Shown here: positions 9,336 to 38,601 of the stretch, in pieces
Layout: each line of letters begins with the position of its first letter
How positions within the stretch are numbered: position 1 is the stretch's first letter
DNA from: Variibacter gotjawalensis
GTDB taxonomy: Bacteria; Pseudomonadota; Alphaproteobacteria; Rhizobiales; Xanthobacteraceae
DNA length: 64,000 bases
NCBI RefSeq assembly: GCF_002355335.1
Contig: NZ_AP014946.1
Coordinates: 248,001-312,000 of the forward strand
Reading direction: 5' to 3'
Notes under the pieces: model-generated
Database searches by the model: none
What the model was told of the DNA's origin: nothing
The model's input: the letters and a program-made list of their open reading frames with translations, nothing else
Made by a program: the position numbers and the translations under genes

Positions 9336-12098
9336 TTAGTCTGCTTTTCGTTCGAAGAGGTGCAGCAGCGCCCGCTTGATAGCCGCTTGCCGCTGCGGCG
9401 CGGCGATCTTCGCGCCCATCAAATCGGTCACGTAGAACACGTCGACGGCGCGCTCGCCGAACGTCGCGACATGCGCCGACGCGATGTTGAGGTTGAGCTT
9501 CGAGAGCGTCGCGGTGAGTTCGTAGAGCAGGCCCGGCCGGTCGAGGCCGGTGACCTCGATCACCGTGTAGCGGTTCGACCAGGAATTCTGGATCAGCACC
9601 GTGGGCTCCAACGCGAAGGCCCGGATGCGCCCACGGCCGGCGGCACGCTTGGCAACGACTTCCGGCAGCCGCATCTCGCCCGCGAGCGCCTTCTCGATCG
9701 TGTCGGCGATGCGCGTCGCGCGGCGTTCCTCGTCGTGATCTTCCGGGAACTCGCGCGTGATCGTGATGGTGTCGAGCGCAAGCCCGTCGGTCGTCGTGTA
9801 GATCTGCGCGTCGACAATGTTGGCACCGCCCGCCGCGCAGGCACCCGCGATGATCGAGAGCAGGCGCGGATGGTCGGGCGCAAGCACGATCAGCTCGGTG
9901 ACGCCGCGTGATTTATCAATCGCGACGCGTGTCGCGAGCTTCTTCTGCGCAACGTCGGCGGCTCGCATGAACCGCGCATGCGCGATCTTGGCTTCGAGGT
10001 CGACCTTGAGCCAGTAGGCCGGATATTGCCGCACGATATAGGCTTCGACGGCTTCGCTCGGCCAATCCTTCAGATTGATGCGGAACTCCTGCTGGGAAGC
10101 ATCGACGCGTTGCTGGCGATTGACCTCGGAGAAGCCGCCGGTGAGCACCGGTTCGGTCTCGTAGTAGAGCGTGCGCAAAAGCTGCGCCTTCCAAGAATTC
10201 CACACGCCCGGGCCTACCGCGCGAATGTCGGCCGTCGTCAGGATGGTGAGCAATTTCAGACGCTCGAGCGACTGCACGACAGCCGCGAAATTCTCGATCG
10301 TCTTGCGATCCGACAAATCGCGCGACTGCGCGATCGTCGACATCGTCAAATGCTCTTGGATCAGCCACGCGAGGAGATCCGTCGCGCCCGCGTTGAGACC
10401 GAAGCGTGGCCCAAGCCTGCGCGCGACTTTCGCGCCCGCGATCGAATGATCCTCCGGCCGCCCCTTAGCGATATCGTGCAGGAACAGCGCGACGAACAGC
10501 ACGCGGCGATGCTCCGGCTGGATCGATTTTACGAGCTCGTTGGCGAGCCCAAGCTCCGGCTGATCGCCGCGCTCCATCGCGGCCAGAATTCCGATGCAGC
10601 GCAGGAGATGCTCATCGACCGTGTAGTGATGATACATATTGAACTGCATCATCGCGACGACGCGTCCGAAATCCGGAATGAATTTTCCGAGCACGCCGCC
10701 TTCGTTCATGCGGCGCAGAACAATCTCGGCTTCTTCCGACGTCAGGATTTCGACGAACAATTTATTGGCTTCGACGCTATCGCGCAGATCGCTGTCGATC
10801 AGCTTAAGCGACCGCGTGATGAGCCGCATCGTGTCCGGATGGAAAGCGAGGTTATGTTTCTGCGCCAAGCGGAACATGCGGATCAGATTGACGGGATCGC
10901 GCTGAAACACATCGGCGTGTGCCGCCATGATGCGATTCTTGTCGACGACGAAATCGTCGCTCTCGCGCAGCGTCCTGATCGCGCGCGGGCGGATGCGCGC
11001 AACGAGCCGGTTGAGCATCGGCTGCGGTTTTGCCTGACGATCTTCCAGATGCGCGCACAGGATCGCGGTCAAATCGCCGACGTCCTTCGCCATCAGGAAG
11101 TAGTGCTTCATGAAGCGCTCGACGTCCTGCTGGCCCGGATGCTCCGTGTAGCCGAGCCGCACCGCGATCTCGCGCTGGATGTCGAACGACAGCCGCTCTT
11201 CCGCACGGCCCGCGACGAAATGGATGTGGCAGCGCACCGACCAGAGGAAATCTTCGCAGCGGCGGAAGATGCGGTATTCGGTGCGATCGAACACACCCTT
11301 CTGCACGAGCTGCTCGGTCTCGCCGACCTGGTAGACGTATTTCGCGATCCAGAACAGCGCATGCAGATCGCGGAGGCCACCCTTGCCTTCCTTGACGTTC
11401 GGCTCGACCAGATAGCGTGATTGACCACCGCGGCGGTGCCGCTCTTCGCGCTCCTGCAGCTTCGCCTCGACGAAGTCGGGGCCAGTGCCCTGCACGACGT
11501 CTTTCTGGAAGCGCGTTTGCAATTCGTCGAACAGCGTCTTGTTGCCGAGGATGTAGCGCGCTTCGAGGAGACCAGTGCGGATCGTCATGTCGGCTTTCGC
11601 CTGCCGCACGCATTCGTCGATCGAACGCGTCGCGTGACCGACCGTCAGCCCCATGTCCCACAGGCAATAGAGAATGCTCTCTGCGATCTGCTCGCCCCAC
11701 GCGGTCTGCTTGTACGGAAGCAGAAACAACAGATCGATGTCGGAGAACGGCGCCATCAACCCGCGACCGTAACCGCCGGTCGCGACGATCGCCATGCGCT
11801 CGGCGTCCGACTGATTTTCCGACGGATAGAGATGCTCCCGCGTAAAATCGTAGACGGCGCGGATGATAGCATCGTGCATCTCGCACAGCCGCTCAGCGCA
11901 GCCACGCCCGTGGCGATCCTGCAGGAGCAGCCGCTCGGCTTCCTTTTTCGCCGCGATCAGACGCGCTTTGAGATGCTGCGATACCGCCGTGCGCAGTTCG
12001 GAATCGCGATGCTTGCGGGCAAGCTCGGCAAGCTCGGACGCGAGTTGAGCGGGGTCGAGCAATTCTGGTTCAGGCGTTTTTAGTGCGGCGACCGACAT
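9336..12098 (-). CDS. glnD: Bifunctional uridylyltransferase/uridylyl-removing enzyme (PII modification)
   Basis: GlnD senses glutamine and adds or removes UMP on PII proteins, the first switch of nitrogen control. The protein is about 920 residues. It has the nucleotidyltransferase motif GGYGRGLMAPFSDIDLLFL near residue 105, a linker containing YLVEPNVKEGKGGLRDLH, the HD-domain hydrolase site with FLHDIAKGRPEDHS near residue 500, and two C-terminal ACT domains (VLAPDHPRLLSIIAGACAA and VTGLDRPGLLYELTATLS). I prefer the ATG at 12096-12098, which has GGAAG six bases upstream; the longer frame would add 12 residues. gltBD in the same window is a likely downstream beneficiary of this regulation. 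Confidence 0.97.
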   Translation of the reverse strand: MSVAALKTPEPELLDPAQLASELAELARKHRDSELRTAVSQHLKARLIAAKKEAERLLLQDRHGRGCAERLCEMHDAIIRAVYDFTREHLYPSENQSDAERMAIVATGGYGRGLMAPFSDIDLLFLLPYKQTAWGEQIAESILYCLWDMGLTVGHATRSIDECVRQAKADMTIRTGLLEARYILGNKTLFDELQTRFQKDVVQGTGPDFVEAKLQEREERHRRGGQSRYLVEPNVKEGKGGLRDLHALFWIAKYVYQVGETEQLVQKGVFDRTEYRIFRRCEDFLWSVRCHIHFVAGRAEERLSFDIQREIAVRLGYTEHPGQQDVERFMKHYFLMAKDVGDLTAILCAHLEDRQAKPQPMLNRLVARIRPRAIRTLRESDDFVVDKNRIMAAHADVFQRDPVNLIRMFRLAQKHNLAFHPDTMRLITRSLKLIDSDLRDSVEANKLFVEILTSEEAEIVLRRMNEGGVLGKFIPDFGRVVAMMQFNMYHHYTVDEHLLRCIGILAAMERGDQPELGLANELVKSIQPEHRRVLFVALFLHDIAKGRPEDHSIAGAKVARRLGPRFGLNAGATDLLAWLIQEHLTMSTIAQSRDLSDRKTIENFAAVVQSLERLKLLTILTTADIRAVGPGVWNSWKAQLLRTLYYETEPVLTGGFSEVNRQQRVDASQQEFRINLKDWPSEAVEAYIVRQYPAYWLKVDLEAKIAHARFMRAADVAQKKLATRVAIDKSRGVTELIVLAPDHPRLLSIIAGACAAGGANIVDAQIYTTTDGLALDTITITREFPEDHDEERRATRIADTIEKALAGEMRLPEVVAKRAAGRGRIRAFALEPTVLIQNSWSNRYTVIEVTGLDRPGLLYELTATLSKLNLNIASAHVATFGERAVDVFYVTDLMGAKIAAPQRQAAIKRALLHLFERKAD

Positions 12099-12337
12099 GG
12101 AGTCTTCCGTACCGAAGCCGCGACCACCTGTCATGCCGGATGATTGTGCGAACGCTTCGCCATCAAACGATTTCTGACACCAGCCACGGTGAGGACCGTT
12201 CGGAGTACAGAACTAATTCGAGCCCCGACGCCTCAGTTGGAGAATATTCTTCTACAACCGGGATGCGAGAGAGAAACGCTCTCGCGCTCTGTCGAACCGG
12301 TTTGACGACCGCCCGAAAAGCTCATAAATGACTGAAC

Positions 12338-12390
12338 AGCGCCGATTTGAGCGACAGCTTGCGGGCGCTTAACAAATGCAGCTAAAGCGG
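12338..12390 (+). promoter_or_regulatory. SAM-II riboswitch (metA/alpha-type SAM aptamer)
   Basis: The segment matches the SAM-II aptamer nearly throughout. P1 is AGCGCC (12338-12343) paired with GGCGCT (12364-12369). Just after the 5' arm comes GATTTGA, the counterpart of the conserved GAUUUAA. The TTGC in the loop (12359-12362) can pair with GCAG (12379-12382) to form the pseudoknot helix P2. The 3' strand carries the invariant AAATGCAGCTAAA (12374-12386), followed by GCGG. Relative to the well-known environmental SAM-II sequence, P1 and P2 differ by changes that keep pairing. It lies 105 bases upstream of the ABC substrate-binding protein start. Binding of S-adenosylmethionine would be expected to lower expression of the transporter. 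Confidence 0.85.
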
Positions 12391-12495
12391 CTGGGGTGCC
12401 CGGACGCGACGCTGAGTTGGCGGGCAACCCCCGCCTCCCATCCTGGGTTTCGTTCTTCAAAAGAAACGAACGCCCAAACGATTAGGAGGTCTTCG
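12391..12495 (+). promoter_or_regulatory. Leader between the SAM-II aptamer and the transporter start, with two hairpins
   Basis: Hairpin 1 is GGCGGG (12419-12424) with CCCGCC (12430-12435). Hairpin 2 is TTCGTT-CTT (12449-12457) with AAG-A-AACGAA (12461-12470), with one bulged A. Neither is followed by a U-run, so simple intrinsic termination is not evident. The Shine-Dalgarno AGGAGG follows at 12484-12489. SAM-II aptamers often sit directly against the Shine-Dalgarno; here about 95 bases intervene, so the expression platform must work differently or include these hairpins. The stretch 12099-12337 between the glnD start and the aptamer has no gene I can support. Confidence 0.5.
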
Positions 12496-13464
12496 ATGAC
12501 CCTGTTTTCGCGCCGTTCTCTCCTCGCCTCCGCTTTCGCAGTCGGCCTGCTACCGTCGAGCGTGCTGTTTGCCGCCGACAAGCCGAAGGAAATCCGCATC
12601 GATTGGGCAACCTACAATCCGATCTCGATCGTGTTGAAGGACCGCGGCCTGCTCGAAAAGGAATTCGCCAAGGACGGCATCACGATCCGCTGGGTCCAGT
12701 CGGCCGGCTCCAACAAGGCGCTCGAATTCCTCAACGCCTCCTCGATCGACTTCGGCTCGACCGCAGGCTCGGCGGCCCTCGTCGCCCGCATCAACGGCAA
12801 CCCGATCAAATCGATCTACGTCTATTCGCGTCCCGAATGGACCGCGCTGGTCACCGCGAAGGGCTCGCCGATCACCAAGATCGAGGACCTGAAGGGTAAG
12901 CGCGTCGCCGTCACGCGCGGCACCGACCCGCACATCTTCCTGGTCCGCGCGCTCGCCAGCGTCGGCCTCTCCGAAAAGGACATCACGCCGGTGCTGCTGC
13001 AGCACGCCGACGGTAAGACTGCGCTGATCCGCGGCGACGTCGCGGCCTGGGCCGGCCTCGATCCGATGATGGCGCAGGCCGAAGTCGAGGACGGTGCGCA
13101 GCTGTTCTACCGCAACGCCGCCGCCAACACCTGGGGCATCCTCAACGTGCGCGAAGCGTTCCTCAAGGATCATCCGGAACTCGTCGCCCGAGTGCTGAAA
13201 GTCTACGAGGAAGCCCGCAAGTCGGCGAGCTACGACGACGTGAAGAAGGCCTTCATCGCCGTCACAAAGCTGCCGGAAGCCGTCGTGGACAAGCAGCTCA
13301 AAGAGCGCACCGAGCTGACCCATTCGAAGATCGGCGCGCCGCAGAAGGAGACCATCCTCGCGGCTGGCCTCGCGCTGCAGCAGGCCGGCGTCATCGACGC
13401 CAAGGTCGACGTGAAGGCAACCGTCGACGCGCTGATCGACGAGAATGTTCCGCTGACGAATTAA
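12496..13464 (+). CDS. ABC transporter substrate-binding protein, SsuA/TauA (NitT/TauT) type, SAM-riboswitch controlled
   Basis: This is a 322-residue periplasmic binding protein. The N terminus FSRRSLLASAFAVGLLPSS fits a twin-arginine-like signal peptide, with cleavage probably after VLFAA. The mature part opens with KEIRIDWATYNPISIVLKDRGLLEKEF and has the family's SAGSNKALEFLNASSIDFGST and DLKGKRVAVTRGTDPHIFL, as in aliphatic sulfonate and taurine binders. The ATG at 12496 follows AGGAGG; longer frames upstream run through the riboswitch and are not translated. Its permease and ATPase follow after a 220-base gap holding a repeat. Control by a SAM-II riboswitch points to an organosulfur or methionine-related substrate rather than nitrate or a thiamine precursor; this is inference. 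Confidence 0.92.
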   Translation: MTLFSRRSLLASAFAVGLLPSSVLFAADKPKEIRIDWATYNPISIVLKDRGLLEKEFAKDGITIRWVQSAGSNKALEFLNASSIDFGSTAGSAALVARINGNPIKSIYVYSRPEWTALVTAKGSPITKIEDLKGKRVAVTRGTDPHIFLVRALASVGLSEKDITPVLLQHADGKTALIRGDVAAWAGLDPMMAQAEVEDGAQLFYRNAAANTWGILNVREAFLKDHPELVARVLKVYEEARKSASYDDVKKAFIAVTKLPEAVVDKQLKERTELTHSKIGAPQKETILAAGLALQQAGVIDAKVDVKATVDALIDENVPLTN

Positions 13465-13683: not shown

Positions 13684-14523
13684 ATGTCTTTAGCCGCCAT
13701 GACCGTCACGGCCGAACGCCAAGCAGCAACCAGCGGCGCCACCGCGCGCGGATTGTCGACCGCGTCGAAGTGGCTCCTCGGTCTTGTCCTGCCGGTCGGC
13801 CTTGGCCTCATCTGGGAACTCTGCGTCCGCTCCGGCCTCTCCAACGGCCGCCTCGTGCCGCCGCCGTCGGTGATCTTCGCGACGCTTTCCGAGCTTGCGC
13901 GCACCGGCGAACTCTGGCGCCACGCCTCGGCAACCATCTGGCGCGTCGCGCTCGGCTTCATCCTTGGCACCGTCGCCGGCACGTTGCTCGGCGCGCTCAC
14001 GGGCTATTCCACATTCGCCAACCGCCTGCTCGATCCGACGCTGCAGGCACTCCGCGCCATCCCGTCGATCGCCTGGGTGCCGCTCTTCATTCTCTGGCTC
14101 GGCATCTTCGAGGAATCGAAGATCACGCTCATCGCGGTCGGCGTCTTTTTCCCGGTCTATCTCGGTGTGATGGGTGCGATCCTCTCGGTCGATCGCAAGA
14201 TCGTCGAAGTCGGCCGCATCTTCCGCCTCTCCGGCCCCGCGCTGGTGCGCCGCATCCTGCTGCCCGCCGTGCTGCCGTCCTACATCGTATCGCTACGTTC
14301 CGGCCTCGGCCTCGGTTGGATGTTCGTCGTCGCCGCCGAATTCATGGGTGCGTCGGAAGGCCTCGGCTTCCTCCTGATCGACGGCCAGCAGCTCGGCAAA
14401 CCGGCGCAGATCGTCGCTGCCATCATTGCCTTCGCGGTGCTCGGCAAGGCAACCGACACGCTGCTGGCGCTCGGCTCTGCACCCTTCCTGCGCTGGCAGG
14501 ACGCTTACGGAGCGCGCGGCTGA
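13684..14523 (+). CDS. ABC transporter permease, SsuC/TauC type
   Basis: This is a 279-residue inner-membrane permease with about six transmembrane segments. After a polar N terminus comes the first segment (LLGLVLPVGLGLIWELCV). The conserved BPD_transp_1 region includes TLQALRAIPSIAWVPLFILWLGIFEESKI and the EAA-like coupling loop VDRKIVEVGRIFRLSGPALVRRILLPAVLP, which docks on the ATPase. The C-terminal ALGSAPFLRWQD is typical of SsuC. Its stop codon TGA overlaps the start of the ATPase gene (TGATG). It belongs with the binding protein at 12496 and so to the SAM-II controlled unit unless the repeat upstream contains a promoter. Confidence 0.92.
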   Translation: MSLAAMTVTAERQAATSGATARGLSTASKWLLGLVLPVGLGLIWELCVRSGLSNGRLVPPPSVIFATLSELARTGELWRHASATIWRVALGFILGTVAGTLLGALTGYSTFANRLLDPTLQALRAIPSIAWVPLFILWLGIFEESKITLIAVGVFFPVYLGVMGAILSVDRKIVEVGRIFRLSGPALVRRILLPAVLPSYIVSLRSGLGLGWMFVVAAEFMGASEGLGFLLIDGQQLGKPAQIVAAIIAFAVLGKATDTLLALGSAPFLRWQDAYGARG

Positions 14524-15311
14524 TGCTCGCCATCGATCACGTCGGGAAGACCTACGCCAACGGCGTCAATGCGCTGGAGCGTTTCACGCTCGACGTAACG
14601 CCGGGCGAAATCGTCGCAGTCGTCGGCGGCTCCGGCTGCGGAAAATCCACGCTGCTGCGACTCATCTCCGGCCTCGACACGCCGACCCACGGCAACGTCG
14701 CGCTCGACAACACACGCATCTCGTCCCCGCACGAAAAGATCGGCATCATCTTTCAGGAGCCGCGCCTGCTCCCGTGGCTTACCGTCGCCGACAATGTCGG
14801 CTTCGGCCTCGCGCATTTGCCGAAACGCGAACGCGATCAGCGCGTGACACAGGCACTCGCCCGCGTCGGCCTCTCCGACAAGGCGAAGGTTTGGCCGCGC
14901 GAACTCTCCGGCGGCCAGGCGCAACGCGTCGCGATTGCCCGCGCGCTCGTGCCACGACCAGAGGTGTTGCTGCTCGACGAGCCCTTCTCGGCGCTCGACG
15001 CCTTCACCCGCGCGGACCTGCAGGACCATCTGCTCGGCCTCTGGGCGGAGCTGAAACCGACGCTCGTCATCGTTACGCATGACGTCGAGGAAGCCGTCGT
15101 TCTGGCGGATCGCATCATCGTGATGCGCCCGCATCCGGGCCGCTTCTTCGAAGAGATCCAGACTGCGGACCTGCCGCGGCCGCGCGAGCGCCAGTCCGCC
15201 GCTTTCGAGTTCGCGAAACGCCGCGTGCTCGCCTCCCTCGACCGTTCGCTCGATCGGTCGAAGATCACCAACGACCTCGAAACCGCGGCGCCGTCCGGCG
15301 GCTGGTGGTAG
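14523..15311 (+). CDS. ABC transporter ATP-binding protein, SsuB/TauB type
   Basis: This 262-residue ATPase energises the importer. It has Walker A VVGGSGCGKST (residues 33-43), the Q-loop FQEPRLLPWLTV typical of SsuB/TauB/NrtD (the LLPW signature), the ABC signature LSGGQAQRVAIARAL, Walker B VLLLDEPFSALD and the H-loop VTHDVEEAV. The start ATG overlaps the permease stop. The tail after PHPGR is variable and Ser/Asp-rich. The three transporter proteins together form a complete importer, which I leave without gene symbols because the substrate is not certain. Confidence 0.94.
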   Translation: MLAIDHVGKTYANGVNALERFTLDVTPGEIVAVVGGSGCGKSTLLRLISGLDTPTHGNVALDNTRISSPHEKIGIIFQEPRLLPWLTVADNVGFGLAHLPKRERDQRVTQALARVGLSDKAKVWPRELSGGQAQRVAIARALVPRPEVLLLDEPFSALDAFTRADLQDHLLGLWAELKPTLVIVTHDVEEAVVLADRIIVMRPHPGRFFEEIQTADLPRPRERQSAAFEFAKRRVLASLDRSLDRSKITNDLETAAPSGGWW

Positions 15312-15415: not shown

Positions 15416-16477
15416 ATGCTGAGTTACGACGTCTGCGAATGCTCCGCGCCGCTGCAGCGGATGGAGCGTCCGACGCCGAAGCCGAAGGGCACGGAAGTTC
15501 TGCTGGAAGTTCTCGCAGCGGGCGTCTGCCACTCCGATCTTCACATCTGGGACGGTTATTACGACATCGGCGCCGGCAAGGTGCTCAAGCTCGCCGATCG
15601 CGGCATCAAGCTGCCGCTGACGATGGGCCATGAGAATGTCGGCCGCGTCGTTGCGGTCGGCCCGCAGGCGAAGGGCGTTAAGGTCGGCGATGTCCGCCTG
15701 GCGCATCCCTGGATGGGCTGCGGCAAATGCGCGGTCTGCAAGCGCGGCGACGAAAACCTCTGCCTGAAATCCGGCAACCTCGGCGTCCAGCGCCAAGGCG
15801 GTTACTCGACGCATCTGATGATCCCGCACCCGCGCTATCTGTTCAAAATCGGCAAGCTCACGCCGGAAGTCGCGGCTCCGCTCGCCTGCTCGGGCATCAC
15901 GGCCTTCAGCGCGCTCAAGAAGTTCGATCCGAAAGTGCTCAAAGACGAGCCAGTCGTCATCATCGGTGCCGGTGGCGTCGGCCTGATGGGCGTGACGCTG
16001 GCGAAGAAGATGGGCGCCAAGACCATCGTGGTCGATATTGATCCGGTCAAGCGCGCGGCCGCCAAGAAAGCCGGCGCCTCGAAGGTGATCGACGGTTCGG
16101 CGGCTGATGCGGTCGCGCAGATCCAGAAGGCAACCGGCGGCGGCGCTTGGTCGGTGATCGACTTCGTCGGCTCGTCCGCCACCGTGAAGCTCGCGGTCGA
16201 CAGCATCATCAAGGGCGGCAGCGTCGTCGTCGTCGGCCTGTTCGGCGGCGACATCACGGTGCCGACGCCATATCTGCCCATGCGCGCCATGACGCTTCGC
16301 GGCTCCTATGTCGGCAGCCTTTCGGAGATGAAGGAGCTGCTGGCGCTCGTGTCCAAAAAGGGCGCACCGCCAGTGCCGATCAAGACCCGCAAACTCGCCG
16401 ACGTGAACCAGACCCTCAACGACCTCCGCGAAGGCAAGATCGTCGGCCGCGTCGTTCTGGAGCCGGCCGCGGCTTAA
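15416..16477 (+). CDS. Zinc-dependent alcohol dehydrogenase (medium-chain)
   Basis: This is a 353-residue MDR-family dehydrogenase. Catalytic zinc ligands are visible: Cys38 in AAGVCHSDLH and His72-Glu73 in MGHENVG. Structural zinc is held by Cys102, Cys105, Cys108 and Cys116 (CGKCAVCKRGDENLC). The NAD(P)-binding Rossmann loop is VVIIGAGGVGLMG, with an acidic VVVDID at the end of the second strand, which favours NAD. The insertion DGYYDIGAGKVLKLADRGIKLP before the His is longer than in classical ADHs and is seen in members acting on cyclic or aromatic alcohols. A GGGAGAG precedes the ATG. The true substrate cannot be told from sequence. The three genes that follow run in the same direction. 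Confidence 0.9.
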   Translation: MLSYDVCECSAPLQRMERPTPKPKGTEVLLEVLAAGVCHSDLHIWDGYYDIGAGKVLKLADRGIKLPLTMGHENVGRVVAVGPQAKGVKVGDVRLAHPWMGCGKCAVCKRGDENLCLKSGNLGVQRQGGYSTHLMIPHPRYLFKIGKLTPEVAAPLACSGITAFSALKKFDPKVLKDEPVVIIGAGGVGLMGVTLAKKMGAKTIVVDIDPVKRAAAKKAGASKVIDGSAADAVAQIQKATGGGAWSVIDFVGSSATVKLAVDSIIKGGSVVVVGLFGGDITVPTPYLPMRAMTLRGSYVGSLSEMKELLALVSKKGAPPVPIKTRKLADVNQTLNDLREGKIVGRVVLEPAAA

Positions 16478-16547
16478 AGGCGCCTTTCGACGGAACACCC
16501 TGGTGCGGCCGCGGGTTGAGCCCGCGGCCCTCATAGGAGCTCCGCCG

Positions 16548-16958
16548 ATGCAGAAATCCGACTGGTTCACCCGCTTTTCGTCCGCAATCGCGACTTACGC
16601 GGGACGCCCGATCACCTTCGCGATGGCGGTGGCGACTGTTCTCATCTGGGCGGTCGCCGGCCCCTTCGCCGGGTTCTCGGATGTCTGGCAGCTCACCATC
16701 AACACCGGGACGACGATCATCACCTTCCTGATGGTCTTCATCATCCAGAACACGCAGAACCGGGACACGGCAGCCCTCCATATCAAGATCGACGAGCTGA
16801 TCCGCGCCAGCGACAAGGCGCACAATTCGCTGCTTGACCTGGAGGAACTGACGGAAGAAGAACTGTGCGAATTCCGCGAAAAGTATGAGGCGTTGGCCCG
16901 CCGCTCACGCGAGACCGGCAAGGCCAAAGTGCCGCTCGAAGTCGATGGAGACACATGA
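16548..16958 (+). CDS. Low-affinity iron permease family (PF04120) membrane protein
   Basis: This is a 136-residue protein with two close transmembrane segments (ITFAMAVATVLIWAVAGPF and TIITFLMVFIIQ), followed by the family's characteristic NTQNRDTAALHIKIDELIRA and an acidic coiled-coil-like tail. The family was named from a fungal iron permease, but the bacterial short members have no proven iron role. The ATG at 16548 has AGGAG nine bases upstream. The stop overlaps the osmC start. The charged cytoplasmic helix suggests a regulatory or scaffold role; this is inference. Confidence 0.88.
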   Translation: MQKSDWFTRFSSAIATYAGRPITFAMAVATVLIWAVAGPFAGFSDVWQLTINTGTTIITFLMVFIIQNTQNRDTAALHIKIDELIRASDKAHNSLLDLEELTEEELCEFREKYEALARRSRETGKAKVPLEVDGDT

Positions 16959-17473
16959 TGGACGCCGCCGCCCTCCGCGCCATGCAGGCGCCGATCAAGG
17001 ACAAGTACAAGACCGATCCCGGCGCCGCCATGATCACGCTCAAGGCGAAGGGCACGCTCGACGATCAGAACATCTCCTGCAAGGTCGAGACTGGCCGCGC
17101 CATTCAGGCCGCCGGCCTACACCCGAAGTCGGGCGGCTCGGGCCTCGAACTCTGCTCCGGCGACATGCTGCTTGAAGCGCTGGTCGCCTGCGCCGGCGTG
17201 ACTCTGAAGGCGGTCTCGACTGCGCTCGAAATTCCGCTACGCGCCGGTCACGTGACGGCGGAAGGCGATCTCGATTTCCGCGGCACGCTCGGCGTTGCGA
17301 AAGACGCGGCCGTCGGCTTCGAGGAAATCCGCCTCCGCTTCGATGTCGATACCGACGCGCCGCAGGAAAAGCTCGACCAGCTCCTCAAGCTCACCGAGCG
17401 CTATTGCGTCGTCTACCAGACGATCCGCAACGGCCCAAAGGTCAGCGTCACGATGGCGCGAGCAGGGCAGTAG
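16955..17473 (+). CDS. OsmC/Ohr family protein
   Basis: This 172-residue protein belongs to the OsmC fold, thiol-dependent peroxidases that reduce organic hydroperoxides. The first catalytic Cys lies at the start of the central helix in ACAGVTLKAVSTAL and the second in the C-terminal TERYCVVYQTI; both are present. The ligand-side helix begins CSGDMLLEALVACAG. ATGATG gives two possible starts three bases apart. The gene is translationally coupled to the PF04120 gene. The grouping with a dehydrogenase and a small membrane protein suggests a shared stress or detoxification transcript; this is inference. Confidence 0.88.
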   Translation: MMDAAALRAMQAPIKDKYKTDPGAAMITLKAKGTLDDQNISCKVETGRAIQAAGLHPKSGGSGLELCSGDMLLEALVACAGVTLKAVSTALEIPLRAGHVTAEGDLDFRGTLGVAKDAAVGFEEIRLRFDVDTDAPQEKLDQLLKLTERYCVVYQTIRNGPKVSVTMARAGQ

Positions 17474-38466: not shown

Positions 38467-38561
38467 GTGCGGCAACGTTGACTTTGTCCGTTGTCGTACT
38501 GCCCTCCTTGGGCGTTTCCTCCCTAGACTTGGGCCGCTCCACAAGAGCGGCCCCTTTTTTT
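38467..38561 (+). ncRNA. mmgR: mmgR/suhB-type alphaproteobacterial small RNA
   Basis: Three hairpins flank exposed pyrimidine-rich stretches. H1 is GTGCGGCAACG (38467-38477) with CGTTGTCGTAC (38489-38499). H2 is GCCC-tcctt-GGGC (38501-38513). Then comes single-stranded GTTTCCTCCCTAGACTT, and finally a terminator GGGCCGCTC-cacaa-GAGCGGCCC plus seven T (38531-38561). CCTCC motifs in H2's loop and the linker can pair with Shine-Dalgarno sequences. The arrangement and the TTTCCTCCCT core match the RNA known as suhB or mmgR, which limits polyhydroxybutyrate granules in Sinorhizobium. Its place beside an inositol-phosphatase-family gene also fits. A promoter-like TTGCGT-N17-CATATT lies at 38432-38460. 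The 5' end is approximate. Confidence 0.75.
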
Positions 38562-38601
38562 GCCCTCACGCCAGCCGACGAAATTTCGCACTGCGGTAGC
38601 G

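Follow-up and report, generated by a model that had tools for sequence, protein, structure and literature searches.

A SAM-II aptamer precedes an importer operon of Variibacter gotjawalensis and, by sequence comparison, represents a divergent subtype of its class that, within its order, was found in a single alphaproteobacterial family. We consider it fairly probable that this leader is a working, family-specific SAM-II riboswitch that turns an SsuABC-like importer off with SAM, that the importer carries a sulfur compound other than a sulfonate, and that control is exerted at translation. Within this explanation, SAM as the ligand, the direction of regulation, the translational mechanism, and the identity of the cargo are the parts that we infer.

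The aptamer lies in the window (the whole stretch of DNA analyzed, 64,000 nucleotides) between the divergent glnD gene and an operon encoding a binding protein, a permease, and an ATPase (Table 1). The original prediction placed a SAM-II aptamer at the head of an SsuABC-type importer, and both parts of that claim hold. A cmscan search of the 64-kb window returned a match to RF00521, the Rfam family for SAM-II (also called SAM_alpha or metA-type), at 41.8 bits (E = 5e-6), above the gathering score of 36 bits, and a search of the whole genome for SAM-II recovered the same match. The next gene matches TIGR01728 at 221.8 bits and is followed by the permease and ATPase genes. P1 is present, and the pocket strands GAUUUGA, GCUUGC, and AAAUGCAGCUAAA are ordered as in the SAM-II class. 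By model score, P1, and pocket nucleotides, the element is a SAM-II aptamer, with partial support for the pseudoknot.

TABLE 1 Coordinates of the aptamer, its leader, and the neighboring genes in the window
Feature	Position	Strand	Basis or remark
glnD	9336..12134	-	NF003467, 1442 bits; divergent neighbor and synteny anchor, outside the switch
Probable promoter: TTGACG (12302-12307) and A+T-rich -10 region (~12324-12330)	12302..12330	+	Conservation
SAM-II (SAM_alpha) aptamer, RF00521	12329..12406	+	cmscan, 41.8 bits (cut-off, 36); whole-genome search
P1 helix, AGCGCC (12338-12343)/GGCGCT (12364-12369)	12338..12369	+	Sequence; alignments of 32 and 34 orthologues
L1 pocket strand, GATTTGA	12344-12350	+	Sequence
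GCTTGC strand	12357-12362	+	Sequence
AAATGCAGCTAAA strand	12374-12386	+	Sequence
L3, GCUAAA and pseudoknot 3' strand	12374..12395	+	Near-invariant up to GCG in 34 orthologues; P2b pairing above permuted controls
Proposed anti-aptamer hairpin	12379..12414	+	RNAalifold consensus, 32 orthologues
Pairs of the proposed anti-aptamer hairpin	CAGC 12379-12382/GCTG 12411-12414; GCG 12387-12389/CGC 12405-12407; CTGGG 12391-12395/CCCGG 12399-12403
Hairpin P4, GGCGGG/CCCGCC, then CCTCC complementary to the Shine-Dalgarno	12419..12435	+	Sequence; nearly all orthologues have a counterpart at the equivalent position
Candidate anti-Shine-Dalgarno GCCTCC, pairing with GGAGGT (12485-12490)	12433..12438	+	Predicted pairing; covariation not significant
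Shine-Dalgarno AGGAGG	12484..12489	+	Sequence; 6 nt 5' of start codon 12496
Periplasmic substrate-binding protein, SsuA family (TIGR01728, NMT1/THI5 fold)	12496..13464	+	Profile match and orthologue alignment
ABC permease, nearest SsuC, score under equivalog cut-off	13684..14523	+	Profile matches
ABC ATPase, nearest SsuB, scores under equivalog cut-offs	14523..15311	+	Profile matches

The aptamer and the importer are conserved as a unit. The aptamer pattern occurs in 31 of the 392 genomes of the family, representing 12 of its 47 genera, and among 397 genomes sampled from the order, none outside the family matched. In all 30 of the pattern matches that were fetched (the window itself being one of the 30), the next gene encodes the orthologous binding protein, a coincidence that far exceeds chance, and the binding proteins behind the aptamer are 68 to 85% identical to that of the window. 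When 80 orthologous binding-protein loci of other species were searched separately, 14 had the same aptamer, located 84 to 125 bases 5' of the start codon. Comparison of orthologous loci thus bears out the predicted association, with aptamer and target kept together across 12 genera.

The orthologous operons of Bradyrhizobium, Rhodopseudomonas, and Afipia, as well as three orthologous loci of Pseudolabrys, are present without a detectable aptamer, indicating that SAM control is inessential to the role of the transporter. Gene order (glnD, the three transporter genes, osmC, and mutS) is alike in nearly all sufficiently long loci, including those of Bradyrhizobium. On the glnD tree, loci with the aptamer fall within one large clade, with losses inside Pseudolabrys, and their distribution requires 3 changes, as opposed to 10.8 with shuffled labels. 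A single gain followed by losses fits this distribution; alternatively, the aptamer may be older and have been lost from the branch leading to Bradyrhizobium.

Immediately 3' of the operon, the window contains genes for an alcohol dehydrogenase, a low-affinity iron permease-like protein, and OsmC (15416-17473); osmC is retained in nearly all orthologous loci, including those lacking the aptamer, and the alcohol dehydrogenase gene is retained in most loci with it. Where the aptamer is absent, Bradyrhizobium leaders (L013, L028, L064, and others) contain a conserved block like TTTTCTCGTTGACCTCTAGATATAACTCATTGAAAAACAATGAA approximately 20 to 90 bases 5' of the binding-protein gene, which may be a promoter with its own regulator site. 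One orthologous leader (L100:1354-1396, minus strand) contains an inserted palindromic stretch with a weak likeness to the Brucella sRNA CI408 (27.9 bits, far under the family cut-off); despite this insert, which leaves 238 bases between the aptamer AUG and the start codon, the leader retains both the aptamer and the Shine-Dalgarno. Elsewhere in the window, positions 38494-38568 (plus strand) match the suhB/mmgR small RNA (RF00519) at 78.8 bits.

Relative to 40 canonical SAM-II copies from the same family, the subtype displays fixed differences at about 14 aligned positions, some of them in P1, L3, and the P2 5' strand. Its P1 reads AGCGCC/GGCGCU in place of the canonical CGUGG/CCACG and pairs equally well, so that the pairing is retained through compensatory change, and the original claim of substitutions that preserve pairing applies to this helix. 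P1 is invariant inside the subtype; the canonical copies of the family are equally invariant, and we dropped P1 invariance as a peculiarity of the subtype. The subtype has a longer L3 than canonical SAM-II (UGCAGCUAAA in place of UCGCUAAA), together with a shorter, weaker P2b and a different pseudoknot strand. In contrast, GAUUUGA, GCUUGC, and GCUAAA are invariant in 34 orthologous leaders and common to nearly all of the 40 canonical copies. Among 20 orthologues, 11 score at or above the RF00521 cut-off and 9 fall under it (30.7 to 35.8 bits), so annotation at the Rfam cut-off misses about half of the copies of this subtype, and surveys conducted at that cut-off have under-counted it. These modest scores may reflect a shift in ligand affinity or specificity.

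The moderate score, together with the absence of the aptamer from many syntenic operons, could be taken to mean that the element is nonfunctional, either a degenerate aptamer or a fortuitous resemblance, but this reading is already contradicted by conservation: of about 50 aptamer positions, 38 do not vary across the 34 leaders, which come from about 12 genera, whereas the downstream spacer diverges freely. We therefore regard it as very improbable. That the subtype is a SAM-II fold with a changed ligand, such as another SAM-related or sulfonium compound carried by the importer, would be in keeping with the fixed differences in P1, L3, and the P2 5' strand, the weaker P2b, and the scores near the Rfam cut-off. 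However, the three single-stranded blocks are unaltered, and the differences reside mostly in helices and a linker, making a change of ligand unlikely. Recognition of SAM by a divergent SAM-II aptamer is the reading that we retain.

The claimed pseudoknot helix stands in part. The pairing CAGCU:GGCUG can be drawn in the window, but orthologues do not preserve that register. They preserve an alternative one, with 114 standard pairs versus 101.9 +/- 4.5 when loops are permuted among sequences (P = 0.002, or P = 0.04 on unique combinations, both values optimistic due to the kinship of the sequences, as are the others derived from orthologues). The P2b helix is short, and the window sequence has just 2 of the 5 pairs of the orthologue register; it can make another short helix in its place. 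In SAM-II, the P2 pseudoknot is required for the response to SAM (PMC1273637).

The whole genome (4.59 Mb, one contig) contains three SAM-II matches, scoring 82.9, 70.5, and 41.8 bits. The highest-scoring copy is located 5' of metA (NF047918, 464 bits) and the second 5' of metZ (NF005696, 703 bits). These two resemble the window copy, and the copies of their kind in the family do likewise, in the pocket strands, P1 hairpin, and putative pseudoknot. They differ from it in their biosynthetic targets, as opposed to a transporter, and in that each is followed directly by a terminator-like hairpin with a T-run, which the window copy does not have. Published SAM-II targets are methionine biosynthesis genes, plus bhmT in Pelagibacter. 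A survey of the SAM_alpha regulon names metY as its core and hom, metA, metX, metC, and metW as other members (metY and metZ being listed together) and includes no transporter (PMC4239095), such that an importer falls outside the published list, just as the original prediction had contrasted it with the usual biosynthetic targets. Searches of the open-access literature turned up no SAM-II riboswitch described in front of an importer of this kind. Sulfur transporters of Firmicutes under SAM-I (S-box) likewise have a SAM-responsive leader 5' of transport genes, and transport targets have been suggested for SAM-I (PMC3766115), but the aptamer class and the lineage are unrelated.

A TTGAC-type -35 element occurs about 30 nt 5' of P1 in nearly all of the 34 orthologous leaders, placing the probable start of the RNA at about P1, as is general for SAM-II (PMC1273637); a strict promoter scan of the window alone found none. 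Downstream, about 88 bases extend from the end of the pseudoknot strand (~12395) to the Shine-Dalgarno. The original description of this spacer, about 95 bases with two hairpins, was correct as to its being long, but three hairpins are predicted (12391-12403, 12419-12435, and ~12445-12475). In nearly all 34 leaders, the spacer has the same order of parts: a G-rich hairpin, P3, immediately 3' of the aptamer, then GCUG, P4 (with arms GGCGGG/CCCGCC in most leaders), CCUCC, a stretch of variable sequence able to form the third hairpin, and the Shine-Dalgarno.

In the RNAalifold consensus, the CAGC of the L3 strand pairs with GCUG in 30 to 32 of 32 orthologues. The resulting hairpin is incompatible with the ligand-bound pseudoknot, which would make it a natural anti-aptamer. 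All of its pairs are invariant and show zero covariation, so covariation cannot probe them; its predicted probability is about 0 in the window sequence and about 0.9 to 1.0 in about nine orthologues. Over the 34 leaders, the predicted cost of opening the Shine-Dalgarno is 5.4 kcal/mol for native sequences, 6.1 kcal/mol when the aptamer is shuffled, and 6.8 kcal/mol when it is masked as occupied (masked versus native, P = 0.001; masked versus shuffled, P = 0.0004). Such a polarity is what SAM-mediated repression would be expected to give. For the leader of the window itself, prediction yields the reverse order, at 7.5 for the native sequence versus 6.6 with SAM-like masking. Covariation between the anti-Shine-Dalgarno and the Shine-Dalgarno among orthologues was no better than for control pairings (partner swapping, P = 0.10). 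Pairing of the P3 3' arm with the P4 5' arm, considered as an alternative platform, showed no covariation in the same test (P = 0.40) and was rejected, and covariation values for the arms of P3 and P4 themselves are circular, these arms having been picked as the best hairpin, and are excluded as evidence. The spacer has conserved hairpins, a strand that can pair with the aptamer, and a normal Shine-Dalgarno, and it lacks a terminator; together these features point to translational control, which is most likely the regulated step, although the window's own predicted folding does not show it.

A long spacer was originally taken to imply a new expression platform, which does not follow, as the SAM-II aptamer of Sinorhizobium meliloti metA already controls translation at a distance (PMC9373788). 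The aptamer lies far from the used start codon in both leaders, with translational control as the likely mode in the window, which has an in-frame AUG near the aptamer. In S. meliloti metA, however, the Shine-Dalgarno is part of the riboswitch itself, on the strand that SAM binding sequesters, with a terminator in between (PMC9373788), unlike in the window, with its normal Shine-Dalgarno and no terminator. The AUG at 12376 was rejected as a start: it has no Shine-Dalgarno and, again unlike S. meliloti metA, just 4 of the 27 testable orthologues have it both in frame and open. Distance alone is not new (PMC9373788).

The binding protein scores above the TIGR01728 (SsuA_fam) cut-off of 163.5 bits, but the importer falls well under narrower cut-offs: 184.6 versus 347 bits for SsuC, 229.8 versus 395 for SsuB, and 118.9 versus 299 for PRK11553 (SsuA). 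The genome encodes two MetQ-type lipoproteins elsewhere, and a separate ssu operon with ssuD at about 4.556-4.559 Mb, indicating that the window operon is not the sole route for methionine or sulfonates. The SsuABC/SsuD system belongs to the same transporter family, and its binding protein is 30% identical to that of the window, which differs in having a SAM-II leader, no accompanying monooxygenase, and replaced sulfonate-coordinating side chains. In Xanthomonas citri SsuA, contacts to the sulfonate come from two side chains, those of Gln36 and Ser141, and from the backbone amides of Gly68, Gly86, and Ser141 (PMC3839906). In an alignment of about 30% identity or less, Gln36, Ser141, Gly68, and Gly86 correspond to Ala38, Asp144, Ser72, and Ala90 of the window protein, all four of which are near-invariant among orthologues; the ssuD-linked SsuA of the same genome retains Gln at the Gln36 position. 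Asp144 would be expected to repel a sulfonate. An AlphaFold model of the binding protein (12 other rows) had a pLDDT of 48, and both the model and the fold search were dropped. Beside the ssu operon, a second SsuA-type binding protein (L134:6675-7617; genome about 4,558,692-4,559,532, minus strand) is interrupted, its two parts lying in neighboring open frames (model positions 1-112 and 113-285), which suggests either a disrupted gene or an error in sequencing.

Two alternatives concern what is regulated and how. A true SAM-II aptamer might control an ordinary importer of sulfonates or oxidized sulfur, with SAM as a general signal of sulfur sufficiency and an unremarkable cargo. The TIGR01728 score is near that of the genome's own SsuA (225.5 bits), and sulfonates are a usual sulfur source in soil (PMC3839906); however, TIGR01728 is only a broad subfamily model of the aliphatic sulfonate family, no desulfonating monooxygenase is among the genes of the window operon, and a complete ssu operon with ssuD exists elsewhere. 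Moreover, Gln36 and Ser141 align with Ala and Asp, and TauA without its equivalent Gln30 binds taurine at 3.5 μM rather than 1.6 nM, a more than thousandfold loss (PMC6906117). A sulfonate importer is on this evidence doubtful. Given the lack of a monooxygenase, the separate ssu operon, and the replaced side chains, the transported compound is unlikely to be a simple sulfonate; by the criteria applied, the transporter belongs to the SsuA superfamily yet appears to fall outside its sulfonate importers. Both the regulation and the Asp would fit a methionine-related compound, which may have an amino or sulfonium group.

The regulated step could instead be premature transcription termination, either Rho-dependent or at GC-rich hairpins. 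SAM-II in alphaproteobacteria is most often tied to terminators (PMC2258182), the metA and metZ copies of this genome have them, and the leader contains strong GC hairpins, but no T-run follows any hairpin of the window leader, in which no terminator-like site was found, and none was seen behind P3 or P4 on inspection of orthologous leaders. Termination is possible but rather unlikely, and we continue to favor control at translation.

Transcription would then begin just 5' of P1. When SAM is scarce, a hairpin with the downstream GCUG would capture strands of the aptamer, and the importer would be made alongside MetA and MetZ, whose genes are under the other two SAM-II copies. When SAM is abundant, the aptamer would lock into its pseudoknot and the GCUG hairpin would be blocked; the Shine-Dalgarno would be paired more tightly, probably with the CCUCC behind P4, and expression of the importer would drop. 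The cargo would be a sulfur compound that feeds methionine or SAM and is not bound as a sulfonate, such as an amino-acid-like or sulfonium organosulfur compound. A bolder proposal, that a separate SAM-II subtype arose together with, and exclusively for, an SsuABC-like importer of a methionine-related sulfur compound unfamiliar in this transporter family, as a multi-hairpin translational switch rather than a terminator, is one that we advance tentatively and think somewhat improbable in full.

With a conserved transporter as target, the SAM-II regulon would reach beyond biosynthesis to uptake, and the SAM-II leader gives a clue from physiology to what is carried by a transporter that would be annotated as a sulfonate importer. 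Taken at the level of sequence, the association suggests that the aptamer-bearing members of this family halt the uptake of a sulfur compound when SAM is abundant.
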